From Turicibacter sanguinis (GTDB lineage Bacteria > Bacillota_I > Bacilli_A > MOL361 > Turicibacteraceae): DNA of 64,000 nt. Positions within the stretch are counted from its first letter, which is position 1, and every line of letters begins with the position of its first letter. The translations under genes and the position numbers were made by a program. Of the stretch, positions 20,310 through 48,788 are shown piece after piece. Below the pieces are notes generated by a model. It saw only the letters and a program-made list of their open reading frames with translations, had not been told where the DNA came from and searched no databases. Where the stretch lies: the NCBI RefSeq assembly GCF_013046825.1, contig NZ_CP053187.1, positions 1,353,501 to 1,417,500 of the forward strand, written 5' to 3'.

Positions 20310-20338
20310 ATGACAAAAATGTATAAATTATTTATAAT
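20310..20338 (+). promoter_or_regulatory. Candidate sigma-A promoter of the first glucosaminidase gene
   Basis: ATGACA (20310-20315; five of six -35 bases), 17-base spacer, perfect TATAAT (20333-20338). Confidence 0.65.
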
Positions 20339-20373: not shown

Positions 20374-23300
20374 ATGAATCGAAAGCGGGGCAAGAAGGAA
20401 GTCTTAAAGGGAACATTAGCAATCGGATTATTAATAAATCAGTTTAGTAGCTTTGGGGCGATTGTTAATGCTACGGTATATGAGTCAGAAGTAGAAAATA
20501 ATTCAGATATTGTTCAAGAATCAATTGATTCAAGTCAAGACGATCTACCAGATTTAGATGGAAACTTATCTAATGAAAGTACTGAAAATGAAGAGATTCA
20601 GAATCCGGGGGACGGTTTACCTGAAGAAATTCCAAATGACGAAGAATTCGGAGAAACTGAAGATGTAGAATTAGAGATTCCTAAAGTAGAAGAAGATTTA
20701 GATAGCGCTGATGGATCAGAAGAAAGCAAGAGTCCAGAAGAGCAAATTGAGGAAGAATTACTTGAAGAAACTGCTTCAATTAATTTAGAAGATGATGGTT
20801 TATTCTCCATTGAAAGTCGAAGTTCTGGAAGTGGATTAGTTCAGCTATGGCAAGTTGTTCCTGATGGACAGCAATCAAAAGAAGGTAAGACTACTTCAGA
20901 AATTATGAAGGCATTACAATGTAAGCCCAATCATAATTTATATCCATCTGGTGGACAATCTGAACATAATACATATGTAAACTCTTGTTATGTAGATGAT
21001 GCGTTATATTTAGGAGAAGATACGAATTATTATTATATTTATTTATCTGGATATGAAGGGAAGGTTCCTAAATCTGAATCTCATTGGTTTGAATTAGATT
21101 TAAATAATGATGGGACAAAGGTAAAGTATGAAATTCAGACAGTTGCTTATTATATTCCAGGCGGAACAACAATGTATAGTTTACAAGAAAAAACTGAACC
21201 ATTAGATGTTCCAGAGTTGAATTATTATGATCAATACTTAGATAAATATAATGATATAAATGAACGAGGAATTACTACTTTTAGTACGTCAACAGTTCAA
21301 TCACCATCTTATTATGCCAATGAAAATGGAACGTTAGTTCATTATCTAACGAGTAATGTAACAAAGGCTAATAGTTATTCAAAAGTGATTGTTGGAAAAG
21401 CACCATCTTGGATGAGTTCTAATGTTAAATATTATAGTTATGATGGAATTTATTTTTATACAAACTGGCGTAACATTAAGGTTAATGGTCAAGGTGCTGT
21501 AAATCAATCAAATCCATTTTATAATTATTATCAATATCTACCAGTTAGGTCGAAATCAAATTATTCAGCTAATATTTTTGATAATTATACAAATTCGAAT
21601 GGTGGAGCAGGTGGAAAGTTAGTCAATACAGGCCAATACTTCTATGCTGTTCAAGATAAGTATGGGATTAATGGTGCCTTACAGTACGCTATGGGAATTC
21701 ATGAAAGTGGATGGGGAAAAAGTAGTTTAAGTATTGATAAGAATAACTTATTTGGGATGAATGCGACAGATAATAATCCTTACGGCAATGGAACGAGCTT
21801 CCCATCTGTTGAAGCAGGAATCAATTATCATGCTGACCGTTACCTATCATGGGGATATACAGATCCGGTTGATGATTGGAGATATATGGGGTCTCATGTC
21901 GGAAATAAAGGAAGCGGGATGAATGTTAGGTATGCATCCGATCCATTCTGGGGAGAAAAAATTGCTGGTTGGTATTATCGTTTTGATAGTGCCAGTGGAT
22001 TAAAGGATTATGATTATTATACAATTGGAATTAAACAATCTAATGCAGTTGTAGATGTTAAGAGCCAGGCTAATTCAAGTTCATCTACTTTATATCAGAC
22101 TAAAAATAAAAAAAGTAATATAAAAATATATAATTATCCATTTTTAATTATTGGACAATTGGGAGAATTTTATAAGATTCAGACAGATACTCCAATAGTT
22201 AATGGAGTTCCGAAATTTAATGCTCAATATATTTATGATTTATCAGTAGGATATATTGATAACACATCCATTCTAATTACTACGAATGGATCTTATGAAG
22301 AATATGGTGCTCTACAAAATCATATTGACCAGGCAAGCATTGATTCCAACGGGTTGTATTTATATGGTTGGGGATATGTTGAAGGAATGAATATGAGTAA
22401 TGATTGGGAGATAGAAAAAAATATAGTTATTAAGGATGAGACAGGAACAGAAGTGGTTCGTCAAACAGTTGAAGATATATATAATTTAGATTTTGCACAA
22501 GGGTTTAATGGACCGTATGAATACGCAAGATATGGAACATTTCTTCCAATTTTAAATTTAGAACCAGGATTATATAATTTTGATATTGAGATACTGAAAT
22601 CGGAAAATGGAAAAAGATCATGGGTTAGAAGCAATTATAAATTAGATACAGGATATGTGCAAATAGGTGGAAAAAAATATAGATTCTACAATGAAGTTGA
22701 GAGTGGACCAGTTAAACTTGAGATAATTGAAGGTGCCTTACAAAATCATATCGACCAGGCAAGCATTGATTCCAACGGGTTGTATTTATATGGTTGGGGA
22801 TATGTTGAAGGAATGAATATGAGTAATGATTGGGAGATAGAAAAAAATATAGTTATTAAGGATGAGACAGGAACAGAAGTAGTTCGTCAAACGGTTGAAG
22901 ATATATATAATTTAGATTTTGCACAGGGGTTTAATGGACCATATGAATATGCAAGATATGGAACATTTCTTCCAATTTTGGATTTAGAACCGGGATTATA
23001 TAATTTTGATATTGAAATAATCAAACCAGGATATGGAAGAAGAGCGTGGGTTAGAAGCAATTATAAATTAGATACAGGATATGTGCAAATAGGTGGAAAA
23101 AAATATAGATTCTACAATGAAGTTGAGAGTGGACCAGTTAAACTTGAGATAATTGAAGGTGCCTTACAAAATCATATCGACCAGGCAAGCATTGATTCCA
23201 ATGGGTTGTATTTATATGGTTGGGGATATGTTGAAGGAATGAATATGAGTAATGATTGGGAGATAGAAAAAAATATAGTTATTAAGGATGAGACAGGAAC

Positions 23301-23586
23301 AGAAGTAGTTCGTCAAACAGTTGAAGATATATATAATTTAGATTTTGCACAAGGGTTTAATGGACCATATGAATATGCAAGATATGGAACATTTCTTCCA
23401 ATTTTGGATTTAGAACCGGGATTATATAATTTTGATATTGAAATAATCAAACCAGGATATGGAAGAAGAGCGTGGGTTAGAAGCAATTATAAATTAGATA
23501 CAGGATATGTACAAATAGGTGACAAGAAGTATAGATTATATAATGAAGTGGAGTATGGTCCGGTACATCTTAGAATAATTTATTAA
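20374..23586 (+). CDS. Large secreted glucosaminidase (GH73-like) with three C-terminal 142-residue repeats
   Basis: About 1070 residues. A signal peptide (residues 1-35) is followed by a highly acidic, Ser/Glu/Asp-rich linker (about 40-145). Next is a domain shared with the protein encoded at 46.5 kb (NHNLYPSGGQ, TYVNSCYVDDAL, IYLSGYEGKV). The glucosaminidase domain spans about 420-545, with the likely catalytic glutamate near 444 in AMGIHESGWGKSS and conserved NNLFGMNATDNNPYGN. GH73 enzymes cut GlcNAc-MurNAc bonds in peptidoglycan. An SH3-like region leads into three tandem repeats (645-786, 787-928, 929-1070) that end exactly at the stop codon. The ATG at 20374 is eight bases after AAGGAG. 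It opens the surface-glycan region. Confidence 0.85.
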   Translation: MNRKRGKKEVLKGTLAIGLLINQFSSFGAIVNATVYESEVENNSDIVQESIDSSQDDLPDLDGNLSNESTENEEIQNPGDGLPEEIPNDEEFGETEDVELEIPKVEEDLDSADGSEESKSPEEQIEEELLEETASINLEDDGLFSIESRSSGSGLVQLWQVVPDGQQSKEGKTTSEIMKALQCKPNHNLYPSGGQSEHNTYVNSCYVDDALYLGEDTNYYYIYLSGYEGKVPKSESHWFELDLNNDGTKVKYEIQTVAYYIPGGTTMYSLQEKTEPLDVPELNYYDQYLDKYNDINERGITTFSTSTVQSPSYYANENGTLVHYLTSNVTKANSYSKVIVGKAPSWMSSNVKYYSYDGIYFYTNWRNIKVNGQGAVNQSNPFYNYYQYLPVRSKSNYSANIFDNYTNSNGGAGGKLVNTGQYFYAVQDKYGINGALQYAMGIHESGWGKSSLSIDKNNLFGMNATDNNPYGNGTSFPSVEAGINYHADRYLSWGYTDPVDDWRYMGSHVGNKGSGMNVRYASDPFWGEKIAGWYYRFDSASGLKDYDYYTIGIKQSNAVVDVKSQANSSSSTLYQTKNKKSNIKIYNYPFLIIGQLGEFYKIQTDTPIVNGVPKFNAQYIYDLSVGYIDNTSILITTNGSYEEYGALQNHIDQASIDSNGLYLYGWGYVEGMNMSNDWEIEKNIVIKDETGTEVVRQTVEDIYNLDFAQGFNGPYEYARYGTFLPILNLEPGLYNFDIEILKSENGKRSWVRSNYKLDTGYVQIGGKKYRFYNEVESGPVKLEIIEGALQNHIDQASIDSNGLYLYGWGYVEGMNMSNDWEIEKNIVIKDETGTEVVRQTVEDIYNLDFAQGFNGPYEYARYGTFLPILDLEPGLYNFDIEIIKPGYGRRAWVRSNYKLDTGYVQIGGKKYRFYNEVESGPVKLEIIEGALQNHIDQASIDSNGLYLYGWGYVEGMNMSNDWEIEKNIVIKDETGTEVVRQTVEDIYNLDFAQGFNGPYEYARYGTFLPILDLEPGLYNFDIEIIKPGYGRRAWVRSNYKLDTGYVQIGDKKYRLYNEVEYGPVHLRIIY
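22306..23583 (+). repeat. Three tandem 426-bp in-frame repeats
   Basis: Units start at 22306, 22732 and 23158, each 426 bp (142 codons), nearly identical at DNA level with mostly silent differences. Each unit begins GALQNHIDQASIDSNGLYLY. Units 2 and 3 share EIIKPGYGRRAW where unit 1 has EILKSENGKRSW. Unit 3 diverges only in its last 20 or so codons. Confidence 0.95.
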
Positions 23587-23602: not shown

Positions 23603-24736
23603 TTGAATATTGGGTTTCTGACAAATGATATTACAGGAATAGGTGGGTCAAAAAAAGTTACATGTTTATTGGCAAATGAAATGGCGAAAAATAATACTGT
23701 AAAAATTATATCTCTCTTTAGAAGCGGAAATATTGAATTTGATTTAGATAGTAACATAGAGATAGAATACTTATATAATAAGGAAATAAAGCTATATGAA
23801 CTATCTACTTATAAGAAGATGGTACAAAGTAAACAATATAAAGAAGTATTCGCTCTATTTCTAAATCTTTTTTACATTAGTTTTACAATAGCGTTTAAAT
23901 TTATTAAAGTTAGAAAATTAACAAAAGAACTTAATAAAATTATTATCCCAGAAATTTATGGATTATTATTCACACCTATTTTTAATAAAAAACAAGAAGT
24001 GATTGTACATTTACATCATACTTATGAATATATAATTAAAAATAAAGTTAATAAGTTTATGCTACTTAATTATAAAAATAAAATACACACGCTGGTAGTT
24101 TTAACGGATAAGGATAAAGAAAACTTTTCTAAATATAAATTTAATTCCATAACTAGAATATATAATCCAATTAATGGATCTAAAATAAAAAGGGATTTCA
24201 TTGATAATAGGATAATATTTATCGGAAGACTAGATTTTATTAAAGGCATAGATTATTTAAAGGAAATTATTCTTTCTTTAAGAGTAGATTTTATTCTTGA
24301 AGTATATGGTGAAGGTCCTTTGAGGCAAGACTTAGAGCAATTTGTTGTACAGAATAAACTTCAAGATAAGGTTAAAATTAAAGGGTTTATTCAAGATATT
24401 CCGGGTGTTTTAAAAGGGGCAAATTGTTTATTAAATACTTCTCGTCATGAGGGGTTACCAATGACTTTCTTAGAGGCTTTTCAATGTGAAGTACCAATAG
24501 TAGCCTCTGAATCATTTCCAGCAATAAAAGAAATTATTCAGGACGGAATTAATGGTTATGTGTATAAACAAGAAGATATTAAAAATTGTATAGATAAAAT
24601 AGAAATGTTAATTAATGATAAAAATTTAAATAATAAATTGGGAAAAGGTAGTGGGGAATGTTATGAAAATTTTGAAATGCAATGTATTATTAAGCAGTGG
24701 AATTTAATTTTAGAGAAGAGGATGTCAATGTGGTAG
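23603..24736 (+). CDS. Glycosyltransferase family 4 (GT-B)
   Basis: This 377-residue enzyme has a GT4 layout. The N-terminal acceptor domain begins NIGFLTNDITGIGGSKKVT. The C-terminal donor domain has FIGRLDFIKGIDYL near residue 210, VYGEGPLRQDLEQF and the sugar-nucleotide motif TSRHEGLPMTFLEAF near 280-294. It adds a sugar to a lipid-linked or polymer intermediate inside the cell; the specific sugar is unknown. Start TTG 23603 follows GAGGTGAG. It starts a tightly spaced, very AT-rich operon of glycan genes (many ATA and AGA codons), unlike the core genes to its left, which suggests horizontal acquisition. Confidence 0.85.
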   Translation: MNIGFLTNDITGIGGSKKVTCLLANEMAKNNTVKIISLFRSGNIEFDLDSNIEIEYLYNKEIKLYELSTYKKMVQSKQYKEVFALFLNLFYISFTIAFKFIKVRKLTKELNKIIIPEIYGLLFTPIFNKKQEVIVHLHHTYEYIIKNKVNKFMLLNYKNKIHTLVVLTDKDKENFSKYKFNSITRIYNPINGSKIKRDFIDNRIIFIGRLDFIKGIDYLKEIILSLRVDFILEVYGEGPLRQDLEQFVVQNKLQDKVKIKGFIQDIPGVLKGANCLLNTSRHEGLPMTFLEAFQCEVPIVASESFPAIKEIIQDGINGYVYKQEDIKNCIDKIEMLINDKNLNNKLGKGSGECYENFEMQCIIKQWNLILEKRMSMW

Positions 24737-35252: not shown

Positions 35253-35764
35253 TATTATTTTTTGGGGGAGTGAGGTTATAGAAAGAAGATGAAAACAGGA
35301 AAAAGAAACTCTAATTTTGAGCTTTTAAGGATAATAGCTATGGTAATGATAGTATCATTACATACTTTAGGCCATGGTGGTGGATTAAACAATACAACTG
35401 TAAATTCCATCAATTTTATATTTAATCATATACTTGAGTCACTTTCTATTGTAGCTGTTAACATATTTATTTTAATTAGTGGTTATTTTGGAATTAAATC
35501 GTATTCAAGTGTTAAAAGTAAAATTAGTCTATTATATAAACAAATGATTTTTTATTCTATTATAATTGGATTTATATTTATTGTTTTTGATAAAAATTTA
35601 TCTAGTATTAATATAATTCAAATGTTATTCCCTATTTCAACACAATTGTGGTGGTTTATGTCATTAAATATTGTTTTATTAATCTTATTGGTGCTAGTAT
35701 AGTCATATGGACACATTTAAGTTAAGTCGTTACAATAGACTTAATAATTAAAGGATGTGTCGAT

Positions 35765-36093: not shown

Positions 36094-36903
36094 GTGTTAT
36101 ATGTTCCAAGAAGTACCTATTATCAATCTAAGCATCAAACGGAATCTAAATGGAAGTACGAGAACGAACAATTGCTTAAACGTATTAAGGAAATTTATTT
36201 TGAAAGTAAGCGTCGATATGGTGCTATTAAGATACACCGTCAGTTGATTAAAGAAGGATTATCTGTTAGCTTAAAGCGTGTCCAACGATTAATGAAATCA
36301 GCAGGCTTAGCTTCTATTATTCAAAAGAAATATACCCCTTATAAGCAATCTAAAGAACTTGTTTTAGAACGTGAAAACATTCTAGAACAGGATTTTTCGA
36401 CCAACTCAATTAACCAAAAATGGGTATCGGATATTACTTATATTCACGTTCAAGAAGAAGGTTGGTGCTACCTAGCATCAGTCATGGATTTACATTCTAA
36501 AAAAATTATTGGTTATCACTTTTCTAAACAAATGACAACGGATATTATCGTCAAAGCTTTAAAGAATGCTTATTTTTCTCAAAAACCTAAAGGTGAGATT
36601 ATTCTCCATACTGATTTAGGATCGCAGTATACCAGCCAAGAGTTTAAAGACTTAACTTTAGACTTTAACATCATCCAGTCTTTTAGTCGTAAAGGATGTC
36701 CTTACGATAATGCTTGTATCGAATCTTTCCATGCCACTCTAAAGAAAGAAGAAGTGTATCAAACAACATATGTTACATTTGAACAGGCTAGAATCGCTTT
36801 GTTTCAATATATAGAGGGCTGGTACAATCGAAAACGAATGCATGGATCGATTAATTATTTAACACCTGAAGAATGTGAGCAACTTGCTCGACAAGTGGCT
36901 TAA
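36094..36903 (+). CDS. IS3-family transposase OrfB (DDE integrase core)
   Basis: This 269-residue frame shows the IS3 catalytic core: KWVSDITYIHVQEEGWCYLA (first Asp), ILHTDLGSQYTSQEF (second Asp) and CPYDNACIESFHATLKKEEV with the catalytic Glu. The preceding YVPRSTYYQS and RRYGAIKIHRQLIKEG form the HTH_21 region. The true product is probably the OrfAB fusion, since the open frame extends upstream to the A6G site at 35992. It cuts and joins the IS ends via a circular intermediate in this family. Confidence 0.92.
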   Translation: MLYVPRSTYYQSKHQTESKWKYENEQLLKRIKEIYFESKRRYGAIKIHRQLIKEGLSVSLKRVQRLMKSAGLASIIQKKYTPYKQSKELVLERENILEQDFSTNSINQKWVSDITYIHVQEEGWCYLASVMDLHSKKIIGYHFSKQMTTDIIVKALKNAYFSQKPKGEIILHTDLGSQYTSQEFKDLTLDFNIIQSFSRKGCPYDNACIESFHATLKKEEVYQTTYVTFEQARIALFQYIEGWYNRKRMHGSINYLTPEECEQLARQVA

Positions 36904-38551
36904 AAACTTAACTTTTTTGTGTCCAAAATATTGACTTAGATCCATATCTCCATATATTAATAAATTTATTCTTAATTTAACGATAGAAGAATTTAAAAAA
37001 TTATTAAAAATATTAATTTTAATATTTGTTATATGGCCATCTATATTAGGTATATTTACACCAGTTGATATATCAGGTGGGTATAGTCTTTATCAATTTG
37101 TTTTTATGTATATGGTAGGAGCATACATACGTGTTAAATATGAAAACGAAAAATTTTCTTGTATAAATAGTTTTGTAATTTATTTATTGACTTCACTAAC
37201 TCTAGCCACAATGAATATAGTTGTTTCTAAAATTGTAGGCTACAATTTTGGAGTATACGCATATAATTTTATTTTAATATTTATCTCATCTATCTCCTTA
37301 TTTTTAACATTTAAAGATTTTAATTTAAAATATAATAAAATAATTAACAATATTGCTACTTTAACTCTTGGGGTATATTTAATTCATGATCACCCACTAG
37401 TTAGAAGTTGGATTTATCAGTTTTTCAATATAGCTAATTCAATTAATACACGTTATTACATTATAAAGATTGTGTTAATAGTTAGTATTATTTTTATAAG
37501 CTGTTGTTTGATAGAAGTAATTCGAAAAAAAATATTTTCTTATTTTAAAAAAATATAAACTTTACATTAGAATAAACTCGCAGATAACACTTTTATTTAA
37601 TATGTGAATTTCCTCTTGTCAAGGAGAGAGAAAAAGACAAAAAATTATGTTGCTTAGGATGATTTGGATAATTTAGGATTTTTGTCGCATAGTATTGCTG
37701 ATTAAATTGTGACTTATTACAATAGATGATTTCAAGTTAAATCCTAATAGATAAGCTGTCAAGATTTTTCTTATATAAATGAAAATCAATTGCTATTCTG
37801 TAGTGAATCCCAAAAGTTGAACTTAATATTATGCAGCTAAGTGGCTGGTATGAATTTGGTATTTGACTGGACTCATACCAGCCAATTTTCTTTTAATTCG
37901 TTTATGATTACAGTAGTATATATAGTTTTCAATTGCTTCTTTTGACTTCTTATAGGTTTTAAATGTCTTTCCATAGTACATTTCTTGTTTAAGGATTCCA
38001 AAGAAGTTTTCCATCAGTGAATGATCTAAACAATTTCCCTTTTCGTGATATGCTTTGGAAAGTTTGATGTGTCTTTAATGTTTTAACTCATTTTTGATGT
38101 TGATACTGGCAATCTTGATCGGAATGAAGGATTGTCCTATATTTTGCTTGTTTGAAAATAGGTAGGACTTGATTCGGGGATTTCATGACAATCTTTAAGT
38201 CAGGTTTATGATTCATTGAATAGGATAAAATTCGACCTGTTGCCATGTTCATGAGTGGACTTAAATATAATTTCTTTACTTACTTTGTTTTAAATCCAGT
38301 CACATCCGTTGTGAGTTTCTAATAAGGGGGATTAAATCGGCGGTTAATTCGATTCTTAGCCACTGTTCCAAAAGTTCTTTTATATGAGTGATATTTACGT
38401 GATTTATGACTAAACTTAACGGAAATAATTAAAAGATTTTTCATTAGGTGATACAATTTCTTATAGTTAACCTGATGACCTCGATGATGAAGCTTATTTG
38501 TGATTCAACGATAACCATCATTCTCATCATTTTTGGATTGTCAACACTAAA

Positions 38552-39452
38552 CTAAACAACTTTTTTAAGGGTATTTTGACGATATTCAACTGGGGATAAA
38601 TATCCCAGTGAAGAGTGGATCCTATGATTGTTATACCAGTTAACGTAGTCGGCAAATTCATAACCTAGTTGTTCTTGGGTTTCAAATATCTGATGGTTTA
38701 CAAATTCTGTTTTGATTACTTTATAGGTCGCTTCTGCAACAGCGTTGTCATAGGGACATCCCTTCATACTTAAAGAGCGTTTAATTTCAAATACCTCTAA
38801 AATCTCATCAATGATTTTATTCTTAAATTCGTTACCTCGATCCTTGTGGAAAATCTTGATTTGACTTAGGTTAGTTTGGACTGTACTGAACGCCTTCTTA
38901 ACTAATTCTGCATCCTTATTAGGCCCAGAGCTATAACCGATAATTTCACGATTAAACAGGTCTACAAGCACACAAAGATAGTGCCAGCGATTTTTTACAC
39001 GAACGTAAGTTAAATCACTGACAACAACGTTTAAATGTGGTTGTTCATCAAAGTTACGATCCACGATATTTTCAGTGTTATCTTCGTTACATTTAGCTGT
39101 ATGCGGCTTAAATTGAGCAACGGTATAATTCGATACAAGGCCTTCTTGTTTCATGATACGACTAATACGACGACGTGAAACTTGTTGTCCCATCTTTTTT
39201 TAACTCTTGCTTAATTTTTCGAGTCCCGTAATTATTTCGGCTTCGACGAAAAATCTCAATGATATCAGTAACCAGTTGAGTTTCATCTTTCTTCGGTTTA
39301 GACTCATAATAATAAGTGCTACGAGGCACATTAAGGACTTTGCACATCGCTGAAACTGAATATTTGTGTGTATTGTTTTTAATCACATTTATCTTCGTCC
39401 TAAGATCAGCGCGGCTTGCTTCAGCGTGCTCCTTGCGGGTATAAAATATCAT
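38552..39452 (-). pseudogene. IS3-C orfB, frameshifted in an A7 run
   Basis: The N-terminal part (39162-39452) holds KYSVSAMCKVLNVPRSTYYY and RNNYGTRKIKQELKK. The catalytic part (38552-39193) holds VVVSDLTYVRVKNRWHYLCV, IFHKDRGNEFKNK and CPYDNAVAEATYKVIKTEF, i.e. the DDE residues. The two frames meet at a run of seven A (39195-39201 on this strand). One A fewer would read KIKQELKKMGQQVSRRRISR continuously. A recent homopolymer slip is therefore the likely lesion; a sequencing error there is also possible. Confidence 0.85.
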
Positions 39453-39705
39453 TTTCCATTTCCAATTGCTTAACTTTTTTACGAAGTTGGATTAACTCCT
39501 GTTCTTCTTCTGAGCGGTTATCTTTCTCCTTAAAAGAACCTGTAGAAGTTGACTGTTTAATCCATTTATCGAGTAAAGACGATGAGATATCGTATTCACG
39601 AACAATATCACATTTACGTTTCCCATTTAAATAAAGCTGGACTAATTGGTTTTTAAATTCATCTGTATACGTACGGCGTGGTCTACGAGTTTTAGTTTGG
39701 GTCAT
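39421..39705 (-). pseudogene. IS3-C orfA with a 20-bp insertion
   Basis: The 94-residue frame begins with the helix-turn-helix TYTDEFKNQLVQLYLNGKRK and has a coiled coil (LIQLRKKVKQLEMENDI). After ENDIL the usual continuation KQAALILGRR is present in the DNA but displaced by 20 extra bases (39422-39441), which shift the frame and end the protein early as YPQGAR. Confidence 0.75.
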
Positions 39706-40349
39706 GTTAAAGCTCCTTTAGATTGATATTATTTATAATTCTACATGACCTTAAAAAAACTGTCTAATTAATTGTAACCTATCCATTTTCTTTAAAAATA
39801 GTTAAAATGAGGTCTTCAAGTTCTTAATCTGGATTACCTTGCGCCATCTATTTAACCCAGTAATAATAAGTTGACTTAGGGAATTTTATGACTTTAAAAA
39901 TATTGGACCAATTAAACTCATCTGTTAACTCTTCGATGATTTTTGATTTGATTGTTTGATTCCATGGTGTAATTCCATGGGCGTGACACTTTTTTTAGTA
40001 TTCAATTTCGATTCTTAATAATTTATTTTCTTATTCTAATTGTTGTTCTCGTGTTAAATCTTTTGTTTCTATAGTTGAGTTTAATTTTGTTATATTATTT
40101 TGAGGCCTTCCTTTTAATATAAATAAAGCCTCAATACCGTCCTTTAAAACTTTTGCATTCCAATTCATAATCGTTCTTATATTTGATATTCCAAAATGAA
40201 TAGCAGTTTGACTATATGAAGCACCTGTTGTTTTCATATAGTTTAATACATTTAATTTAAATTCTGGACTATATTTAGTCATAGAAAAAACACCAAAAAT
40301 ATTAGATTTTTTAGGTCTCTCTTTTAAGTGGTATTTTTGTAAGGGAGTT

Positions 40350-41300
40350 GAGTTTTGAATCATGAAAATACGTGATTTAAAGTGATAAAAACTACAATAT
40401 CCAAAATCGATTCGTTTAATAACTTTGATTTCTTCAATAAGACCATTGTATAGGGACATCGAATGATGGATATAATAAGAATAGTTTTTAAATATTTTAA
40501 AATTTGTTTGAAGAGTGAACAGTAAATCTTGATCAAAGCATAAGTTGCTTTTAATTGAGATAATAAATTAAGGAGAAAATTTAGAATATCTATTTTGCGC
40601 ATAGGTTGTTTAGTGCACTAGGTAAAGGGATAAGTGATTGTATGATGAGTGTGGATGGTTTTAAAAATAATGGTGGGGATAGTTTGAATTTATATGCATG
40701 CTTTTTAATATTCTTTATCAATCGAATGTATGTTTTATTGATTGAACGAGGGGGATGTTGAAAAAGGTGGAACCTAGAAAGGAGAATTTTAGCGTGAGGA
40801 AAAAGTTCCTTTATTAGGTTCATATAAAAGGGGGGGATCAATGACAATGTGTTTGATACGCGAACGTGCCTCTTTAGAATAGCGATTAAAATAAGGCTCG
40901 AGTAAGAGTAAGCGACATCAATAATATTGATAATTTGGTTGGTATTAGCGTCGTAAAAGATGAAAGATATATATTCTTTGGAAGACTTACTGATTTAAAT
41001 TTATCAAAGTAAAATCTTTCAAGAGATAATTGAAGTTCAAAGATTGAGATTCGTAAAAAGATGATATAGGTGACGCTCAAATGAGAGGATTAATGACGAC
41101 ATGTAATATCTATTCCAGAGAATTTATTTTGATTTTCTAAATTTATCACATATTTTGTAGTGTAAGAGATGTAGCAGTTTTGACAATGAGTTGGTAGGTA
41201 CGAGAGAATTTCTTTAAAAGCAATTCACACCATTGTCTCTGAGATAACCTTTCTGGAAGTTAATGTTTTTATATTTAATATTTTTCTAGTAATATAAATT
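40350..41300 (-). pseudogene. ISL3 element A transposase, heavily decayed
   Basis: Minus-strand fragments match the intact parts of the neighbouring ISL3 transposase: ELFPHAKILLSRFHLFQHPP, the MRKIDILNFLLNLLSQLKAT segment and IKVIKRIDFGYCSFYH. Many frameshifts and stops separate them. The C-terminus is cut where the nested IS3-B begins. Confidence 0.8.
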
Positions 41301-41397
41301 AAAAAATGAATGAGACATCAAATCTATCCTTTCAATGTTTCTTTTGAGTGTTAACATTGTAACAGGATAGAGATTTGATGTCTCTTTTTGGTACTAT

Positions 41398-41447
41398 AAA
41401 ACTCGTAGGAAATACACCATTATTTGTGTGTAGATTCTACGAGTTTT
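41398..41447. repeat. 11-bp inverted repeat between two ISL3 copies
   Basis: AAAACTCGTAG (41398-41408) is matched by CTACGAGTTTT (41437-41447). It lies at the junction of the ISL3 A remnant and the left target duplication of ISL3 B and may be a remnant terminator or IS end. Confidence 0.6.
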
Positions 41448-41452
41448 ATTTT

Positions 41453-42984
41453 GGTTCTTTGTCAAATAGTGTTGCTGATTAATTTGTGACCTATTACAAT
41501 GAAAAATTAAATTGAAATCCTAGTGGCTATGCTGCTAGGATTTTTGTTTTAGGTTTTGTTAGATTTTGAATCATGAGAATACGAGATTTAATTACCCTAC
41601 TAGTGGAGGAAACATGCTTCGCATGGCAGGTGACCCAATGATAGAAACTGCGATAGCCAAAGGCAATACGCTTAATGACTTTAATTTTATTATTAATTCC
41701 TTCAATAGGACCATTGGTATACGGAGTTGTTAGTGTGTGTTCAATATAAGATTGATAAGTTTTAAAGGTTTGAAAAGCTGTTTGAAGTTCAGGAGAAATA
41801 AGAGGGTGTTCTGCTTGAATTAAGTCATTTAATCGTTCTAAGTTTTTAGTTTGAAGAGTGAAAAGTAAGTCTTGATAAAGATCATAAGTCGCTTTTAGTT
41901 CTGGGGATAAATCAAGGAGGAAATTTAAGATATCTATTTCACGCATCGGTTATTTGAAACAGTAAAACGAATGATAAGTTGTGGTATTGAGCAATGTATG
42001 AGACTTCAAGAACAAGCGCCAGTAACGTTTAAACTTACGACCATGCTTTTTGAACTTCTTCATTAATCGGATTCGAGTTTTATTCAGTGCACGAGAGAGA
42101 TGTTGAACGAGATGGAATTTATCAATGATAATTTGGGCATGAGGAAAAAGATCCTTAATCAAGCTAATGTAAGGAGCGTACATATCAATCACAATATTTT
42201 TTACGCGAGTACGTGCTTCCTTTGTATATCGTTTAAAATAAGCTTGAAGGGAGCTTAAACGACGATCTTCAATGATATCGATGATTTGTTTGGAGTCAGC
42301 ATCACAAAAGATAAAAGACATATGACACTCAGCAGACTTAACTGATTTAAATTCATCAAAACAAAGATTTTCAGGTAAATAATTAAAGTTTAGGGTTTGA
42401 GATTCATAAAAGCTATGGATGATACGATTGACAGTTGAATGAGAGACCTGATGACGATGAGCGATATCACATTCAGAGATTTTATTTTGAGCCTCTAAAG
42501 CAATGGCATATTTCATGTTATAAGAAATATAACAGTTCTTTTCAACGATTGAAGTTTTTAGTGTAAAGGTAGATTGGCAATGCCCACAATAATAACGCTG
42601 TTTCTTTAACTCTAAATAGGTATCATGGAGTGAGACTTTTGGAATAACAATTCGAGAAGTTTTAAATCCATGCTTCTTAAATTTTGAATCAAATAGAGTT
42701 CCGCATTTTTGACAATGAGTCGGTTGATACGAGAGGATTCCTTTAAAAATAAAGCTAGTAATTCCGTTTAATTTAACTTCTTCAAGCGAATCTTCAAGGA
42801 ACGTAATGTTTTTATCTTTAATATTTAAAAGTTTTCTAGTAAAATATGAGTGAGACATCAAATCTTATCCTTTCAATATTGTTTTAGCCGATAACATTGT
42901 AACAGGATTGAGACTTGAGGTCTCTTTTTTTTGATGCCATGAAAAAAGTGCTGCTTAATCAGCAACACCAAATATTATAGAACC
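41453..42984 (-). mobile_element. ISL3-family element B with 8-bp target duplication
   Basis: 1532 bp. The left end reads GGTTCTTTGTCAAATAGTGT then TGCTGATTAA; the right end, inverted, reads GGTTCTATAATATTTGGTGT then TGCTGATTAA. Flanking 8-bp direct repeats TTTATTTT lie at 41445-41452 and 42985-42992, the usual ISL3 duplication length (though AT-rich). Confidence 0.88.
41527..42861 (-). pseudogene. ISL3-family transposase with one in-frame stop
   Basis: The frame from 42861 to 41527 is continuous except for a TAA at 41950-41952. The N-terminus has zinc-finger cysteines (CQKCG and CGHCQ, about residues 55-105), then HQVSHSTVNRIIHSFYES and the DDE-type core CFDEFKSVKS, NIVIDMYAPYISLIKDLFPH and IDKFHLVQH. 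The end, after the stop, carries TTPYTNGPIEGINNKIKVIK. The single nonsense codon removes the last third, so it should be inactive unless read through. Confidence 0.9.
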
Positions 42985-43010
42985 TTTATTTTTTATGATT
43001 AATAGGTGAT

Positions 43011-43185
43011 GGGGTAACGGAGCTCTTTTAGGGTTTTAACATCCGCAACAAAAAGTGTTACCCCACTCTATTCATTTAACATTCGATTAAGCAAGTTGGT
43101 ACTAAGCTGCCGTGTAACGAACCAAAATGAGAAGAATGAACAGAGATGGGAACCTATCATAAAAAAGTAAGGAGAGGAGAAGTGG
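43011..43185 (+). ncRNA. Candidate IS110 bridge RNA region
   Basis: The non-coding leader before the transposase frame contains an 8-bp stem GGGGTAAC (43011-43018)/GTTACCCC (43057-43064) enclosing a 38-base internal region. A second possible fold follows around GCAAGTTGGTACTAAGCTGC. Recent work shows that IS110-group elements encode a bridge RNA in the leader whose internal loops specify target and donor DNA. The assignment here rests on position and fold only. Confidence 0.45.
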
Positions 43186-43189
43186 ATGA

Positions 43190-44380
43190 ATGATTTCAAT
43201 TGGAATTGATGTATCTAAACGAAAAAGTACAGTGGCTATGATCAATGTCATGGGTAAAATCTTATAGACACCTTTCGATATTGAACATTCACAAAATGAA
43301 ATTCAGAACTTGCTTGAGTTAATTAAAGATTATCCTAAAGAACAAGTTCGATTCATTATGGAGGCGACTGGCATCTATCATTTAGGATTAGTCAACGAGC
43401 TTCAAAAACAGGGTTATTTTGTACATGTTGCAAATCCCTTATTGATAAAAAAATATTTTGATGCTGAAATTCGAAAAGGAAAAACAGATCGAAAAGATGC
43501 GCTAAAAATTTCTCGTTATGGAACAGAAAAGTGGTGGCTTTTACAGGAGCATTCAAAGGCTGATCAGATCTATCAAGATTTACAGTTTTTATCGAGAGAA
43601 TATAATTCATTTATGGCGAGTAAGATTAAATTAAAAGTTCAGTTATCTAATTTAATAGAACTTAGTTTTCCAGGACTTGAGAAAATTCTAAAAGGTCATT
43701 ATTTTGGGCTATTATTAGATTTCTATGAGTTATAACCTTGTGCTTCAATGGTTCGACAGGTTAGTGAAAAGAAGTTTTCGAATCAGTTTATTAAAATGGC
43801 CATAAAAAAAGGACACCGTAAAGGGGCCCAGATCGCACAGAAAGTCTATCGACTTGCTCATGAGTGCGTCACGTTTGAACCGAGTCAAAAGGTTGCAGCC
43901 CTCTCGGTTAAACACTGCGTCAGTCTACTTCGTTCAACAGAACAAGCGACTGACAGTATTATAACACAAATGGATGAGTTAACGAAAGAACTTCCTGAAT
44001 ACGAAATCATTAAAAAAATGAAAGGTGTCGGCGATAAGTTAGCACCACGTTTAATCGCAGAAATAGGTGATGTGAGACGATTTAAAAATTCAAAAAGTTT
44101 AATTGCTTATGCAGGGATTGATGCACCACCTTATCAATCAGGACAATTCGAAGCAATGAATCGCCACATCTCTAAACGAGGTTCGAGAAGTTTGAGGAAG
44201 TGTGGTTATGAAGTGATGATGGCTGTAAAATCATCGAAACCAAAAGAAGATAATGCCGTTTATGAAGATATGCTCAAAAAAGAAGCAGAAGGTAAAAATA
44301 AGAAGTTAGTAAAGATTGCAGGACTGAATAAATTTTTAAGAATTTATTACGCTCGAGTCATAGAAGTCTATCGGGCGTAG
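43190..44380 (+). pseudogene. IS110-family transposase with two in-frame stops
   Basis: From ATG 43190 the frame is continuous for 396 codons except for TAG at 43265-43267 and TAA at 43733-43735. The DEDD nuclease domain shows SIGIDVSKRKSTVAM, FIMEATGIYHLGLV and KTDRKDALKISRYG. The C-terminal transposase_20 domain shows IIKKMKGVGDKLAPRLIAEI and AYAGIDAPPYQSGQFEA with the serine-containing HISKRGSRSLRKC. Two nonsense codons and no frameshift point to recent inactivation. Confidence 0.9.
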
Positions 44381-44740
44381 AAATCATTTTTTCTATTTAT
44401 ATCCAATAAAAGACACTAAGATAGTGTCTTTTCGTCGTACCCAATATTTTGATTAATCTAAAATAAATTTTTATCATTTTACACTTGATTTATGTTAGCA
44501 AGTTTTTGTTACATGAAAAAAGGTATTGCTTAGTCAGTAATATAAATGTTAAATTAAGAAGCTCATCTTCTATAATAATAGTTTGAGTATGATTAATAAC
44601 TTCTGCCAAATTAGATTTATAAGAGAATGTTATAAATGGTTTTGATAAAATTTTGATAGTGTTCGTCGTCTCTATTTTCCTGCCATCATTATAAATTACT
44701 TTAAAGTAATTTACTATAAATATATAAAATCTTAGTAAAG

Positions 44741-45737
44741 TGGATCTAGGTAAATATTTTGGACACAAAAAAGTTAAGTTTTTAAAGTCTTGGTTGGTAT
44801 ACTGTGTCCCTAAATCAGTATGAAGTATAACCTTGTCTTTGGGTCTTTGAGAAAAATAAGCATTCTTTAAACCTTGAACAATAAGGTCTTTTGTCATTTG
44901 CTTAGAAAAATGATAACCAATAATTTTCTTTGAATGTAAATCCATTACTGAAGCTAAGTAGCACCAACCTTCTTTGTGGACGTAAATATAAGTAATATCG
45001 GATACCCATTTTTGATTAATTGAAGTCGTCGAACAATCCTGTTCTAGAATGTTATGACGTTGTAAACCAAATTCCTTAGCTTGTTTATACGGGGGATATT
45101 TCTTTTGAATAATCGAAGCTAAACCGCTTTATTTCATTAATCTCTGAACACGTTTCAAGCTAACAGAGAATCCTTCTTTAATCAATTGACGGTGTACTCT
45201 AATAGGACCATATCGACGGCTACTTTCAAAATAAATCTTCTTAATTCATTCAAGTAGTTGGTGATTTTCACGTTTTCACTTAGATCCAGTTTGATACTTC
45301 TATTGATAATAAATGCTTCTTGGGACACTTAAGATCTCAAAAGGTTACTTAATATCATGTTCTTGATGATGTTGATTAATAAACTGACATAATTCAGATT
45401 GAGTTACTTTCTCGCCAATATGGTCATAGCCTTTTTTAAGATTTCATTTTCCTCTTGTAGACGTAACATCTCTTGTTTCATACGCTTAATCTACTCAAGT
45501 GTGATGCCAGTCTCATCTATTGAGGTAATAGGAGAAATTTGTTTAATCCATTTATAGATAGTGACCTCTGATAAACCATATTCACGACTAAGTTCTAAGA
45601 CTCTCCGTCCAGTTTTATAAAGTTCAACAACCATAGATTTAAATTCAGCATTATATTTTTTCATACATACACATCCTTTTATTAAGTCTATTGTAACGAC
45701 TTAACTTAAGTGTGTCCATAAAACTATACTAGCACCA
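44741..45737 (-). mobile_element. Decayed copy of the IS3 element (copy 2), internally deleted
   Basis: Both ends match copy 1 at 35689 (TGGATCTAGG at 44741; inverted TGGTGCTAG at 45737), and a 3-bp direct repeat AAG flanks it (44738-44740, 45738-45740). At 997 bp it lacks about 260 bp relative to copy 1, mostly the end of orfB. Confidence 0.88.
44785..45664 (-). pseudogene. Transposase remnant of IS3 copy 2
   Basis: Minus strand; orfA starts at 45664. orfB fragments match copy 1 (SVMDLHSKKIIGYHFSKQMT, VILHTDLGTQYTNQDFKN), then the frame runs straight into the IS end, so the catalytic-Glu region is deleted. Several stops and frameshifts lie upstream. Confidence 0.85.
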
Positions 45738-46553: not shown

Positions 46554-48788
46554 ATGATGAAAAAAATATTCATTATAGGGTTGATATTGGTTTTTAGTAT
46601 ATTGAAGGATCAGGATGAAATTTTAGCAGAAACTAATTATCAGCCTAACTTAACAGTAGATGAAGTAGTAAAAAGACTTGAAAGTTATACGCCTAGCGGA
46701 TTAACCAATTATCATCAGGTAATTGATCAGTTATTTTCTCTTGAATCTTTGATGGATTTATTTAGTCCGTATTATTATTACAGTATTAATACAGTCTCTA
46801 GTAGTGCAAAAGAAACCACTCGTATGAAAACGGTGAGTACTTATTGTGATCCTTATTTTTATGAGGTTGCAATGTCTAGGTCTGATGGAACATTTGAACA
46901 TGTTGCTTGTGTTGAAACGTTTGATGAAGCGAAGCAGGTTAAGGAACGTGTGGGAAACTTAGTGTTTGAGGATGTTCCGGTTGTTTTAAATGATGGAATG
47001 ATTGTGATGTCATTTACTCCTGCTATTATTCAGTTTAAAACGACGTCTTGTGGTGCGAATCATAATTTAAAAAGTCGTGCTGGTTCGAATGCTAAGCAAG
47101 ATACTTATATTAATGCGTGTTATATTGATGATGCTTTTTTGCTTGATGAATCACAGGATGATTTCCAGGTTTATATGTCTGGATATGATGGATGGATTTC
47201 AAGACATGTGCTGTATGATGCACCAAGTGGTAGCGAAACGTGGGTAAATATTGTTCCTAGCAATCAGGTTCAAAACGTTTCTTATTATGAAGTGATGGGG
47301 GAGGACTTAGTTCATCATATTTCTAAGGATGTGCGTGATGAATTAGCCTCGTCATCAGTCATTATTGGGAAAGCACCTGATTTTATGGTTGAGAATCAGA
47401 AGTATTATAGTTATGATGGCAACTATTTTTATGATGATTGGACTAAGATTACAGCTGATAAGCAGTATGCTTTGAATTTGGATGATCCTTATTATAATTA
47501 TTTTCAGTATCTACCTTATCGTTCAAAAACTAATTATAGCTTTGATGAGTTAAATATCTATTTAAATGAACTTGGTTATACGTTAAAACCGACTAGCTAT
47601 CCTGCAAATACTAACGAAAGTCAGTTAGTTGGTGAGGGTGAAAGTTTTATTGCAGCCCAAGAAGAGTTTGGAATCAATGGTGGTCTTGAATTTTCAATGG
47701 CGCTTCATGAAAGTGGTCAAGGTCGAAGTAAGATTTCAATTGAAAAGAATAATACGTTTGGAATGAATGCAACGGATAACAATCCTTATGGAAATGCAAC
47801 GATGTTCACGAGTGTACGAAATGGAGTCTATTATCACGCGCAGCGTTATATGTCTTGGGGATACACAGATGCGCTTGATGATTTTAGATATTTTGGTGCC
47901 CATGTTGGAAACAAGGCAAGTGGTATGAATGTGAAGTATGCTTCTGATCCGTATTGGGGTGAAAAAATTGCAGGTTGGTATTATCGTATGGATAAAGCGC
48001 TAGGTGGCAAAGATTATAATTACTATCAACTTGCTATTAAGCTGGATAATGAAATGATTCCAGTTTTATCGGACGACGATAAGACGGTGTACTTAACAGC
48101 CAACGGTAAAAGTAATTTACCGATTTCTAATTATCCTTTCCTAGTGTTAGAGAGAGGTGATGAATTACTGAAAATTCAAAGTGACATGGCGATTGAACCT
48201 AGTACGCAGCAAGCTTTGATTAATTCAAACTATGTATTTAAAGATAGCGCAGGATATGTGGATAGTAATGATCTTTTATTAGTGAATGAGACCACTATCA
48301 ATAATCCCACTCAAATTTTGACTTATTTAAATTTAGGAATCGGTGACTCTCTTCCAATTCGTTCAGCTTTAGAAAGTTTAGGATATCATTTTGAGGCAGT
48401 TGAAATTGATTGTTCGATTGATGGGGTGATAGAAATTGGGCCAAGCTCTATCACTGCTTTGAATCCAGGACTTGTACAGGTTAGTATTTTACACGATGGA
48501 GAGATTATTAGAAGTTTTGATATTCGTGTTAGCATTCCTGTAGAATCAGTGGAAATTTTAAATCATAGCAAAGCTTTAAAAGTTGGAAAAACGATGCAGT
48601 TAGAATTCGGAGTGACACCAAGCAATGCAAGTAATCAACAGGTCATGTGGATTTCTAGTGATGATCAGGTTGCTACAGTTGATCAAAATGGATTTGTACA
48701 AGGCGTATCACCTGGGGATGTGACAATAACGTTGTTAAGTGATGATAGTGGGGTTAAGAGTGAAATCAAGATTCAAATTAAAGAATAA
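46554..48788 (+). CDS. Secreted glucosaminidase (GH73-like) with a C-terminal Ig-like (Big_2) domain
   Basis: This 744-residue paralogue of the 20.4-kb protein has a signal peptide (residues 1-24). A shared N-terminal domain follows (about 155-225: SCGANHNLKSRAGSN, TYINACYIDDAFLL, YMSGYDGWI). The glucosaminidase domain spans about 360-480, with the likely catalytic Glu386 in ALHESGQGRSK and NNTFGMNATDNNPYGNATMF. The final ~85 residues form a bacterial Ig-like domain (VESVEILNHSKALKVGKTM, ISSDDQVATVDQNGFVQGV). It replaces the acidic linker and 142-residue repeats of its paralogue with this single domain. It should cut peptidoglycan glycan strands. Ribosome site TAGGAG precedes ATG 46554. Confidence 0.86.
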   Translation: MMKKIFIIGLILVFSILKDQDEILAETNYQPNLTVDEVVKRLESYTPSGLTNYHQVIDQLFSLESLMDLFSPYYYYSINTVSSSAKETTRMKTVSTYCDPYFYEVAMSRSDGTFEHVACVETFDEAKQVKERVGNLVFEDVPVVLNDGMIVMSFTPAIIQFKTTSCGANHNLKSRAGSNAKQDTYINACYIDDAFLLDESQDDFQVYMSGYDGWISRHVLYDAPSGSETWVNIVPSNQVQNVSYYEVMGEDLVHHISKDVRDELASSSVIIGKAPDFMVENQKYYSYDGNYFYDDWTKITADKQYALNLDDPYYNYFQYLPYRSKTNYSFDELNIYLNELGYTLKPTSYPANTNESQLVGEGESFIAAQEEFGINGGLEFSMALHESGQGRSKISIEKNNTFGMNATDNNPYGNATMFTSVRNGVYYHAQRYMSWGYTDALDDFRYFGAHVGNKASGMNVKYASDPYWGEKIAGWYYRMDKALGGKDYNYYQLAIKLDNEMIPVLSDDDKTVYLTANGKSNLPISNYPFLVLERGDELLKIQSDMAIEPSTQQALINSNYVFKDSAGYVDSNDLLLVNETTINNPTQILTYLNLGIGDSLPIRSALESLGYHFEAVEIDCSIDGVIEIGPSSITALNPGLVQVSILHDGEIIRSFDIRVSIPVESVEILNHSKALKVGKTMQLEFGVTPSNASNQQVMWISSDDQVATVDQNGFVQGVSPGDVTITLLSDDSGVKSEIKIQIKE

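Follow-up and report, generated by a model that had tools for sequence, protein, structure and literature searches.

Tandem C-terminal repeats of a Turicibacter sanguinis peptidoglycan hydrolase resemble accessory domains of wall teichoic acid enzymes and probably form an adjustable surface-polymer anchor

The stretch of Turicibacter sanguinis DNA considered here (64,000 nucleotides, positions 1,353,501 to 1,417,500 of contig NZ_CP053187.1; hereafter the window) encodes a putatively secreted hydrolase whose tail is made of three near-identical repeats, and it is this tail, together with what it might hold on to, that forms our subject. An earlier reading of the same DNA (the original prediction) had called the protein a wall hydrolase, a label borne out by a Pfam match to PF01832 (GH73) of 64.2 bits against a curated cut-off of 30.2, at residues 423-539 of the listed open reading frame; by its domain content the protein is a GH73 N-acetylglucosaminidase that would cut the bonds between N-acetylglucosamine and N-acetylmuramic acid (GlcNAc-MurNAc bonds) in peptidoglycan. 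The listed frame begins at GTG 20368 instead of at the likely start, ATG 20374, which has the motif AAGGAG eight bases upstream and yields a product of 1070 residues. Inspection of the translation revealed no LPXTG/sortase motif and no membrane segment beyond the last repeat unit, a Pfam scan of the whole hydrolase recognised no wall-binding module outside the tail, and the choline-binding repeat families PF01473, PF19085 and PF19127 gave no Pfam match at E<=1 anywhere in it. Promoter-like sites numbered 73 against 65 expected, one of them (20310-20338, 11/12) lying just 5' of the hydrolase gene, and a single terminator-like site was found, on the minus strand; neither kind of site was used.

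The repeats make up the C-terminal 426 residues of the hydrolase and run from 22306 to 23583 with a TAA directly after them, as had been predicted. Shifted by 426 bases, the gene matches itself at best at 423 of 426 bases, compared with 148-160 in five codon shuffles, and the DNA identity between units amounts to 95.1% (units 1 and 2), 90.6% (1 and 3) and 94.6% (2 and 3). The same three comparisons yield 18, 31 and 17 codon differences, of which 7, 13 and 6, respectively, change the amino acid, so the originally stated predominance of silent changes holds for most changed codons but does not extend to nearly all of them. No further copy of the unit was found at E<=10 in its own genome (one contig, 3.0 Mb), and one unit used alone as query had no match in the collection of genome contigs (genome_contigs).

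The distribution of the differences discloses how the array is likely to have grown. Altogether 42 positions vary among the units. Unit 1 departs from the other two at 19, all within unit positions 6-315, unit 3 at 21, of which 20 lie at 354-426, and unit 2 at two. The 40 sites peculiar to unit 1 or to unit 3 fall into only four runs, a number as low as this occurring in none of 200,000 permutations. Positions 1-315 are common to units 2 and 3, a shared segment that the original prediction had recognised, and positions 316-426 are common to units 1 and 2, which it had missed; this latter tail matches exactly between units 1 and 2, and unit 3 differs from it at 20 bases. The simplest history compatible with the sequence would start from a two-unit array, (a-x)(b-y), in which a single tandem duplication of the 426-bp segment x-b produced (a-x)(b-x)(b-y), with the junction lying somewhere in unit positions 316-353; the recent, stepwise duplication proposed earlier is therefore right in outline and can be sharpened to one event with its junction inside the unit. 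The two x-b copies differ at three bases, all synonymous, while the proportions of synonymous (pS) and nonsynonymous (pN) differences are 0.22 and 0.03 for the older pair a/b (positions 1-315 of units 1 and 2) and 0.45 and 0.12 for the pair x/y. Because the x-b copies differ only silently and pN is low relative to pS, we regard the array as coding, under constraint and recently lengthened. The coordinates of these features are collected in Table 1.

Table 1. Features of the hydrolase gene, its repeat array and the adjoining gene (positions in the window)
Feature	Position	Strand	Remarks
GH73 N-acetylglucosaminidase gene (predicted) with C-terminal repeat array	20374..23586	+	likely ATG start 20374
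Putative signal peptide MNRKRGKKEVLKGTLAIGLLINQFSSFGAIVNA	20374..20472	+	judged by eye in the translation
Conserved catalytic region including the GH73 domain	21295..22263	+	67-82% identity among four congeneric orthologues
Repeat unit 1 (a-x), 142 residues, predicted immunoglobulin-like (Ig-like) beta-sandwich	22306..22731	+	426 bp
Repeat unit 2 (b-x)	22732..23157	+	426 bp
Repeat unit 3 (b-y)	23158..23583	+	426 bp; final codon abuts TAA 23584-23586
Putatively recently duplicated 426-bp segment, (x-b)(x-b)	22621..23472	+	unit positions 316-426 plus 1-315, twice
Glycosyltransferase gene (Glycos_transf_1)	23603..24736	+	16 bases past the hydrolase stop

The original prediction had not recognised the 142-residue domain, and in keeping with this no Pfam or NCBIfam family matches the window repeats at its cut-off; weak Pfam matches to DUF4823, Cas9_PI_C, HTH_CHD1_Hrp3 and DUF440 (E 0.016-0.15) and an NCBIfam match to 'IgG-blocking protein M' (18.3 bits against a cut-off of 140) were not built on. 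What has changed is that a fold can now be assigned by model. Structure prediction of one unit, the check that had been suggested, delivered a confident AlphaFold2 model of unit 1 (7-sequence alignment; predicted local distance difference test, pLDDT, 88.3; predicted template-modelling score, pTM, 0.84) that is all-beta but for one short helix. Among solved structures its best match is to residues 351-489 of TarS (Z 12.7, 2.6 Å, 126 residues aligned), alongside RmlT (Z 12.2, 3.1 Å, 130 aligned) and the N-terminal domains of TarL (8v33; Z 11.1, 2.7 Å, 114 aligned) and TarK (8v34; Z 9.2), all of them enzymes that make or decorate wall teichoic acid; after these comes CBM21 as the next fold (Z 8.0), and the carbohydrate-binding domain of Wzt scores Z 6.7 (3.2 Å, 95 aligned), in the range that the tool terms a 'possibly common arrangement'. 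A Foldseek search with the same model returned RmlT in its first 19 rows, and PF14524 (Wzt_C) gave no Pfam match to the window repeat at E<=1. As a control, the model of a Big_7 repeat that occupies the same slot in the G004 orthologue of the hydrolase (genomes are cited as G and loci as L, each with a number; pLDDT 93.6) had different nearest neighbours, with TarS, RmlT and TarL outside the top 50, although the absence of TarS, RmlT and Wzt from that top 50 is no proof of differing folds. Judged by the best matches of the model, the window repeat has the predicted fold of TarS C1, RmlT and the TarL N-terminal domain; the fold by itself does not show common descent.

Relatives of the repeat were sought by profile searches in 395 genomes of the class, in which profile A1 (7 units) identified the module in 8 at E<=1e-5 and profile A5 (39 members; of 15 segments newly extracted for it, a short copy from L050 was omitted) in 33 at E<=1e-6. 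Of these 33, 23 have the module on a GH73 protein and six only on other proteins, the stretch being too short to assign a carrier in the remaining four (G089, G151, G302, G348). The other carriers include proteins that probably build or export glycans. In G006 the module forms the N-terminus of a TarL-type polymerase (E 4e-10 with profile A3, which was built before this protein was added), the remainder of which matches NCBIfam TarL at E 1.8e-123, under the model cut-off and in an alignment that starts at residue 177, past the module; the gene adjoins those for D-ribitol-5-phosphate and glycerol-3-phosphate cytidylyltransferases, both above cut-off. The ATPase of an ABC polysaccharide exporter in G023 carries the module at its C-terminus (profile A1, E 1.7e-9), where no PF14524 match was listed, and the same contig also encodes an Amidase_3 protein bearing it. 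A GH73 protein of this genome has four units, and the genes immediately after its own encode a Glyphos_transf protein and a cytidylyltransferase; PEGA (PF08308) reached 28.1 bits in total in this distant protein against a cut-off of 20.8 with no single stretch passing, and was not built on. G005, which is outside the 33, has a 1172-residue frame (L160 12877-16392) composed of a glycosyltransferase family 2 (GT2) domain, the module and a Glyphos_transf polymerase, matched at E 2.5e-6 by profile A5, of which this protein was not a member; the G006 polymerase and the G005 fusion are the two instances of the module on 30 PF04464 loci examined (L036, L127-L155). The module was also found at the C-terminus of an apparent multi-span membrane protein without Pfam or NCBIfam match in a LicD cluster of G112, on a small membrane-anchored protein beside GT2 and YfhO genes in G004, and on apparently secreted carriers with no evident glycan context in G356, G368 and G391 (one genus) and in G304. 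Three apparently secreted proteins of one genus (L196 5983-7197, L197 5444-6724, L198 5446-6657; 404-427 residues) have a single module near the N-terminus and apparent housekeeping neighbours.

These carriers bear on the possibility that the tail is an adhesin for host glycans or mucus, with a surface-exposed copy number that varies under host selection. Such a role would suit a tail that is secreted, repeated and recently duplicated, but we consider it very improbable, for related domains are found on proteins that make or export glycans and the units are under coding constraint, neither the older pair (pS 0.22, pN 0.03) nor the recent one (three silent changes only) bearing a sign of diversifying selection. 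As to origin, one unit queried by tblastn against 50,697 phage and 72,556 plasmid records had no match at E<=0.1, nothing related turned up in IMG/VR with profile A1, and a fold search of BFVD returned nothing at E<=0.001, its tenth row being an Enterococcus phage endolysin (E 0.012, TMq 0.52). A phage, plasmid or viral source of the repeat, of which these searches gave no good sign, was thus set aside; the repeat and some endolysins may nonetheless have a fold in common.

Scanned with the catalytic region of the enzyme, genome_contigs yielded 166 relatives, of which 80 were kept for the tail counts (5 of these frames run to the end of the available DNA); 73 with a tail of at least 60 residues were scanned with Pfam at E<=0.001, seven shorter tails being left out. 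Choline_bind_3 (PF19127) was found in 8 of the 73, CWB2 in 8, ChW in 7 and SLH in 1, and because such families are present in some tails, the window repeat is, in terms of domain order, in a slot that in some relatives is taken by known wall anchors. The tails of six of the 80 kept relatives match the window repeat family itself, and none of the 80 is named as a congener, in a collection that may lack records close to the window.

The same slot can be read differently, namely as holding repeats that mainly oligomerise the enzyme or act as a spacer, with no glycan held. Ig-like domains in tandem often serve as spacers; in the same place the orthologues of G004 and G001 have Big_7 (PF17957) repeats, and Big_3 is present in 14 of the 73 scanned tails. 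Moreover, because TarS C1 and C2, the closest fold, are described as forming a trimer interface (PMC5156392), oligomerisation has to be counted as an alternative to glycan binding. We nevertheless judge this explanation unlikely, in view of the dedicated wall anchors in the same slot of some relatives, the related domains on an exporter and on glycan-handling polymerases, and the fact that Pfam sees no wall-binding module in the hydrolase besides the tail.

Comparison within the genus rests on five genomes, among which that of the window is the only one of its species. The hydrolase is present in four of them, that of the window included, and was not found in the fifth, G002 (85% complete, 140 contigs). 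The catalytic regions of the four orthologues are alike (Table 1) and their tails are not: the G003 orthologue has four units related to the window repeat at 35-46% identity, and those of G004 and G001 each carry a shorter Ig-like repeat, Big_7, in six copies, with six Pfam stretches apiece, so that the unit counts across species are 3, 4, 6 and 6, both sixes belonging to the other repeat type. PF17957 had no listed Pfam match in the window hydrolase, and profile-profile comparison of the window repeat with the G004 and G001 repeats gave hhalign probabilities of 26% and 6%. Within an array the DNA identity of the closest units is as high as 83% in G003, 99.4% in G004 and 100% in G001. In the last of these (L020 5806-7749) the six Big_7 units are of two alternating types, units 2 and 4 as well as units 3 and 5 being DNA-identical, which points to a very recent duplication of a two-unit super-repeat. 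Given that the orthologue arrays each hold some close units, repeat expansion at the hydrolase tail is, as far as sequence goes, a habit of the genus. The closest pair of catalytic regions (G000-G004, 82.4%) has different tail types; however, since support in the catalytic tree is weak (37 and 72) and a tree of glutaminyl-tRNA synthetase (GlnRS) groups G004 with G001 (94), one change of tail type can explain the whole pattern, and repeated tail swapping is not claimed.

These arrays also allow us to weigh the notion that repeat recombination produced the array as a neutral by-product whose copy number is without functional significance. One of the 80 kept GH73 relatives has tail repeats with a DNA identity of 90% or more, and in 11 any DNA repeat of at least 150 bp was detected, a rarity which indicates that the enzyme class can do without near-identical arrays and which agrees with a neutral origin. 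Against this notion, all four genus orthologues carry arrays, of two domain types and with 3-6 units, and coding constraint is kept in each unit; we therefore hold it to be quite unlikely.

Downstream of the hydrolase, the Glycos_transf_1 gene opens a run of surface-glycan genes that extends to ~37.6 kb and comprises, besides Glycos_transf_1, a MurJ-like flippase, Branch, DUF1919, GT2, an epimerase and an acyltransferase. The acyltransferase gene is apparently split, its PF01757 start lying at 35289-35702 and its end at 37106-37558 with an rve-type transposase (36094-36903) between them, and transposase genes or fragments (rve, ISL3, IS110) are clustered downstream of the glycan genes at 38552-44945. 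The hydrolase, the glycan genes and many insertion-sequence remains together occupy the block between dagK and vanZ (20215-45767). Since dagK and vanZ are 25,553 bases apart in the window and only 169 in G004, the hydrolase and glycan genes belong to a block that is absent at the G004 site. The G004 orthologue is found at another locus, with an ABC exporter containing a Wzt_C domain ~3 to 5 kb away; that of G001 lies between GT2 and a flippase, and that of G003 adjoins a sulfatase-family protein with weak, sub-cut-off similarity to LtaS. A second GH73 hydrolase in the window (46554-48788, plus strand; 744 residues, Big_2 tail) is a paralogue of the repeat-bearing one, and its G004 orthologue comes directly after metK-dagK-vanZ.

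Gram-positive hydrolases are known to be targeted mainly via choline-binding repeats and LysM, SH3b, CWB2, ChW and SLH modules. Because the module of the window resembles accessory parts of wall teichoic acid enzymes, the repeats are probably an adjustable surface-polymer anchor: we find it rather likely that they are Ig-like domains of the carbohydrate-binding module (CBM) type, of the kind that accompanies teichoic-acid enzymes, and that the tail attaches the hydrolase non-covalently to the cell's own wall glycopolymer with a strength that depends on copy number. On this account the hydrolase would be exported, its three domains would hold it on the anionic or secondary polymer of its own wall, and the GH73 domain would then cut peptidoglycan locally, as LytB does in cell separation; avidity would be tuned by the number of copies, which could expand via unequal recombination within the gene. 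The wall- or ligand-binding role that the original prediction proposed as likely for the tail gains support from the predicted fold, from the proteins sharing the domain and, in part, from the tail slot. A bolder version, which we put forward tentatively and rate at somewhat less than an even chance, is that the accessory domain with which teichoic-acid-type synthases and exporters hold their polymer was co-opted, outside the cell, as a tandem repeat anchoring peptidoglycan hydrolases to the wall, so that the builder, the exporter and the cutter would recognise one polymer with copy number as the dial, and the repeat would represent a new class of wall-glycopolymer-binding domain that is not a Pfam family. 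Among the matches listed in open-access literature on Turicibacter hydrolases and on teichoic-acid or wall-binding repeats there is no paper on this domain, which is weak evidence.

PF04464 was detected at E<=1e-20 in 8 of 25 module genomes and in 34 of 271 others (Fisher p 0.014), in a test which assumes that its 296 genomes are G000-G295, none with a higher number being listed, and in which the G006 polymerase, itself a carrier of the module, counts itself; PF04464-like neighbours occur at 2 of 17 module-tailed GH73 loci and 1 of 74 others (p 0.09; flank lengths differ). Co-occurrence and neighbours thus no more than suggest a teichoic-acid ligand.

Several observations weigh against the anchor as we have drawn it. 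The remaining 17 of the 25 module genomes, G003 among them, have no PF04464 match at the same threshold; a teichoic acid made by PF04464 enzymes therefore cannot be the general ligand, and 'secondary wall polymer' is the better term for what is here called 'teichoic acid'. Profiles A1, A3 and A5 (7, 25 and 39 members) did not match TarS, RmlT or TarL among PDB sequences at E<=10 and returned scattered unrelated matches only, which leaves the fold as the tie to these enzymes. Until it was itself included in the profile, the small G004 protein gave a weak match (E 2e-4), and the search that gave the G006 and G004 matches also scored an apparent DNA primase at E 0.0035, so that matches near 1e-3 have to be treated as noise. 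In three of the six genomes with the module only on proteins other than GH73, all of one genus, the carrier is apparently secreted and has no evident glycan-gene setting. The commonest tail families among the 73 scanned relatives, Dockerin_1 (23) and Big_3 (14), are not wall anchors. Finally, polar localisation by the repeat domain of LytB is said to be choline-independent (PMC4633669), and the analogy with LytB is for this reason not a simple one.

Should the anchor be confirmed, one domain traceable to both teichoic-acid-type enzymes and hydrolases would link the making of wall polymers to their reading, and purified units would offer a binder for the wall polymers of this bacterial class, of which little is known. 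Whether the hydrolase recognises the polymer made by its own locus would then be a question directly testable with single units.

Four known systems provide the closest comparisons. The carbohydrate-binding domain of the O-antigen exporter component Wzt, which is reported to recognise the polymer cap (PMC9445017), resembles the window repeat as a beta-sandwich with a weak fold match, and the module type of the window occurs at the C-terminus of the G023 exporter ATPase; it is unlike in that PF14524 matches neither the window repeat nor the C-terminus of that exporter. The ribitol-phosphate polymerases TarL and TarK share the fold at their N-terminal domain, and the TarL-type polymerase of G006 has the module at its N-terminus by profile; they differ in bearing a single copy on a polymerase, and the G006 module itself is unmatched to TarL by sequence. 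TarS C1 (353-495) is described in PMC5156392 as having an immunoglobulin-like CBM fold, as part of a trimer and as possibly binding teichoic acid polymer, the region being presented there as stacked carbohydrate-binding modules; C1 and RmlT have the same predicted fold and size as the window repeat, whereas they are accessory or trimerisation domains of glycosyltransferases and the repeat belongs to a predicted secreted tandem array on a hydrolase, with no detected sequence similarity to PDB chains. Pneumococcal LytB differs in the build of its tail, with short beta-solenoid repeats on the N-terminal side instead of 142-residue Ig-like domains at the C-terminus, the latter being without choline-binding Pfam match. 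What it has in common with the hydrolase of the window is that it belongs to the secreted GH73 glucosaminidases and bears a tandem-repeat domain for wall binding, a role that in the window protein is predicted; according to PMC4633669 the choline-binding domain of LytB recognises teichoic-acid choline and is essential for hydrolysis, and the number of its repeats is strain-dependent, and it is in the same manner as with these choline-binding repeats that copy number might set the strength with which the window hydrolase is held on its wall.

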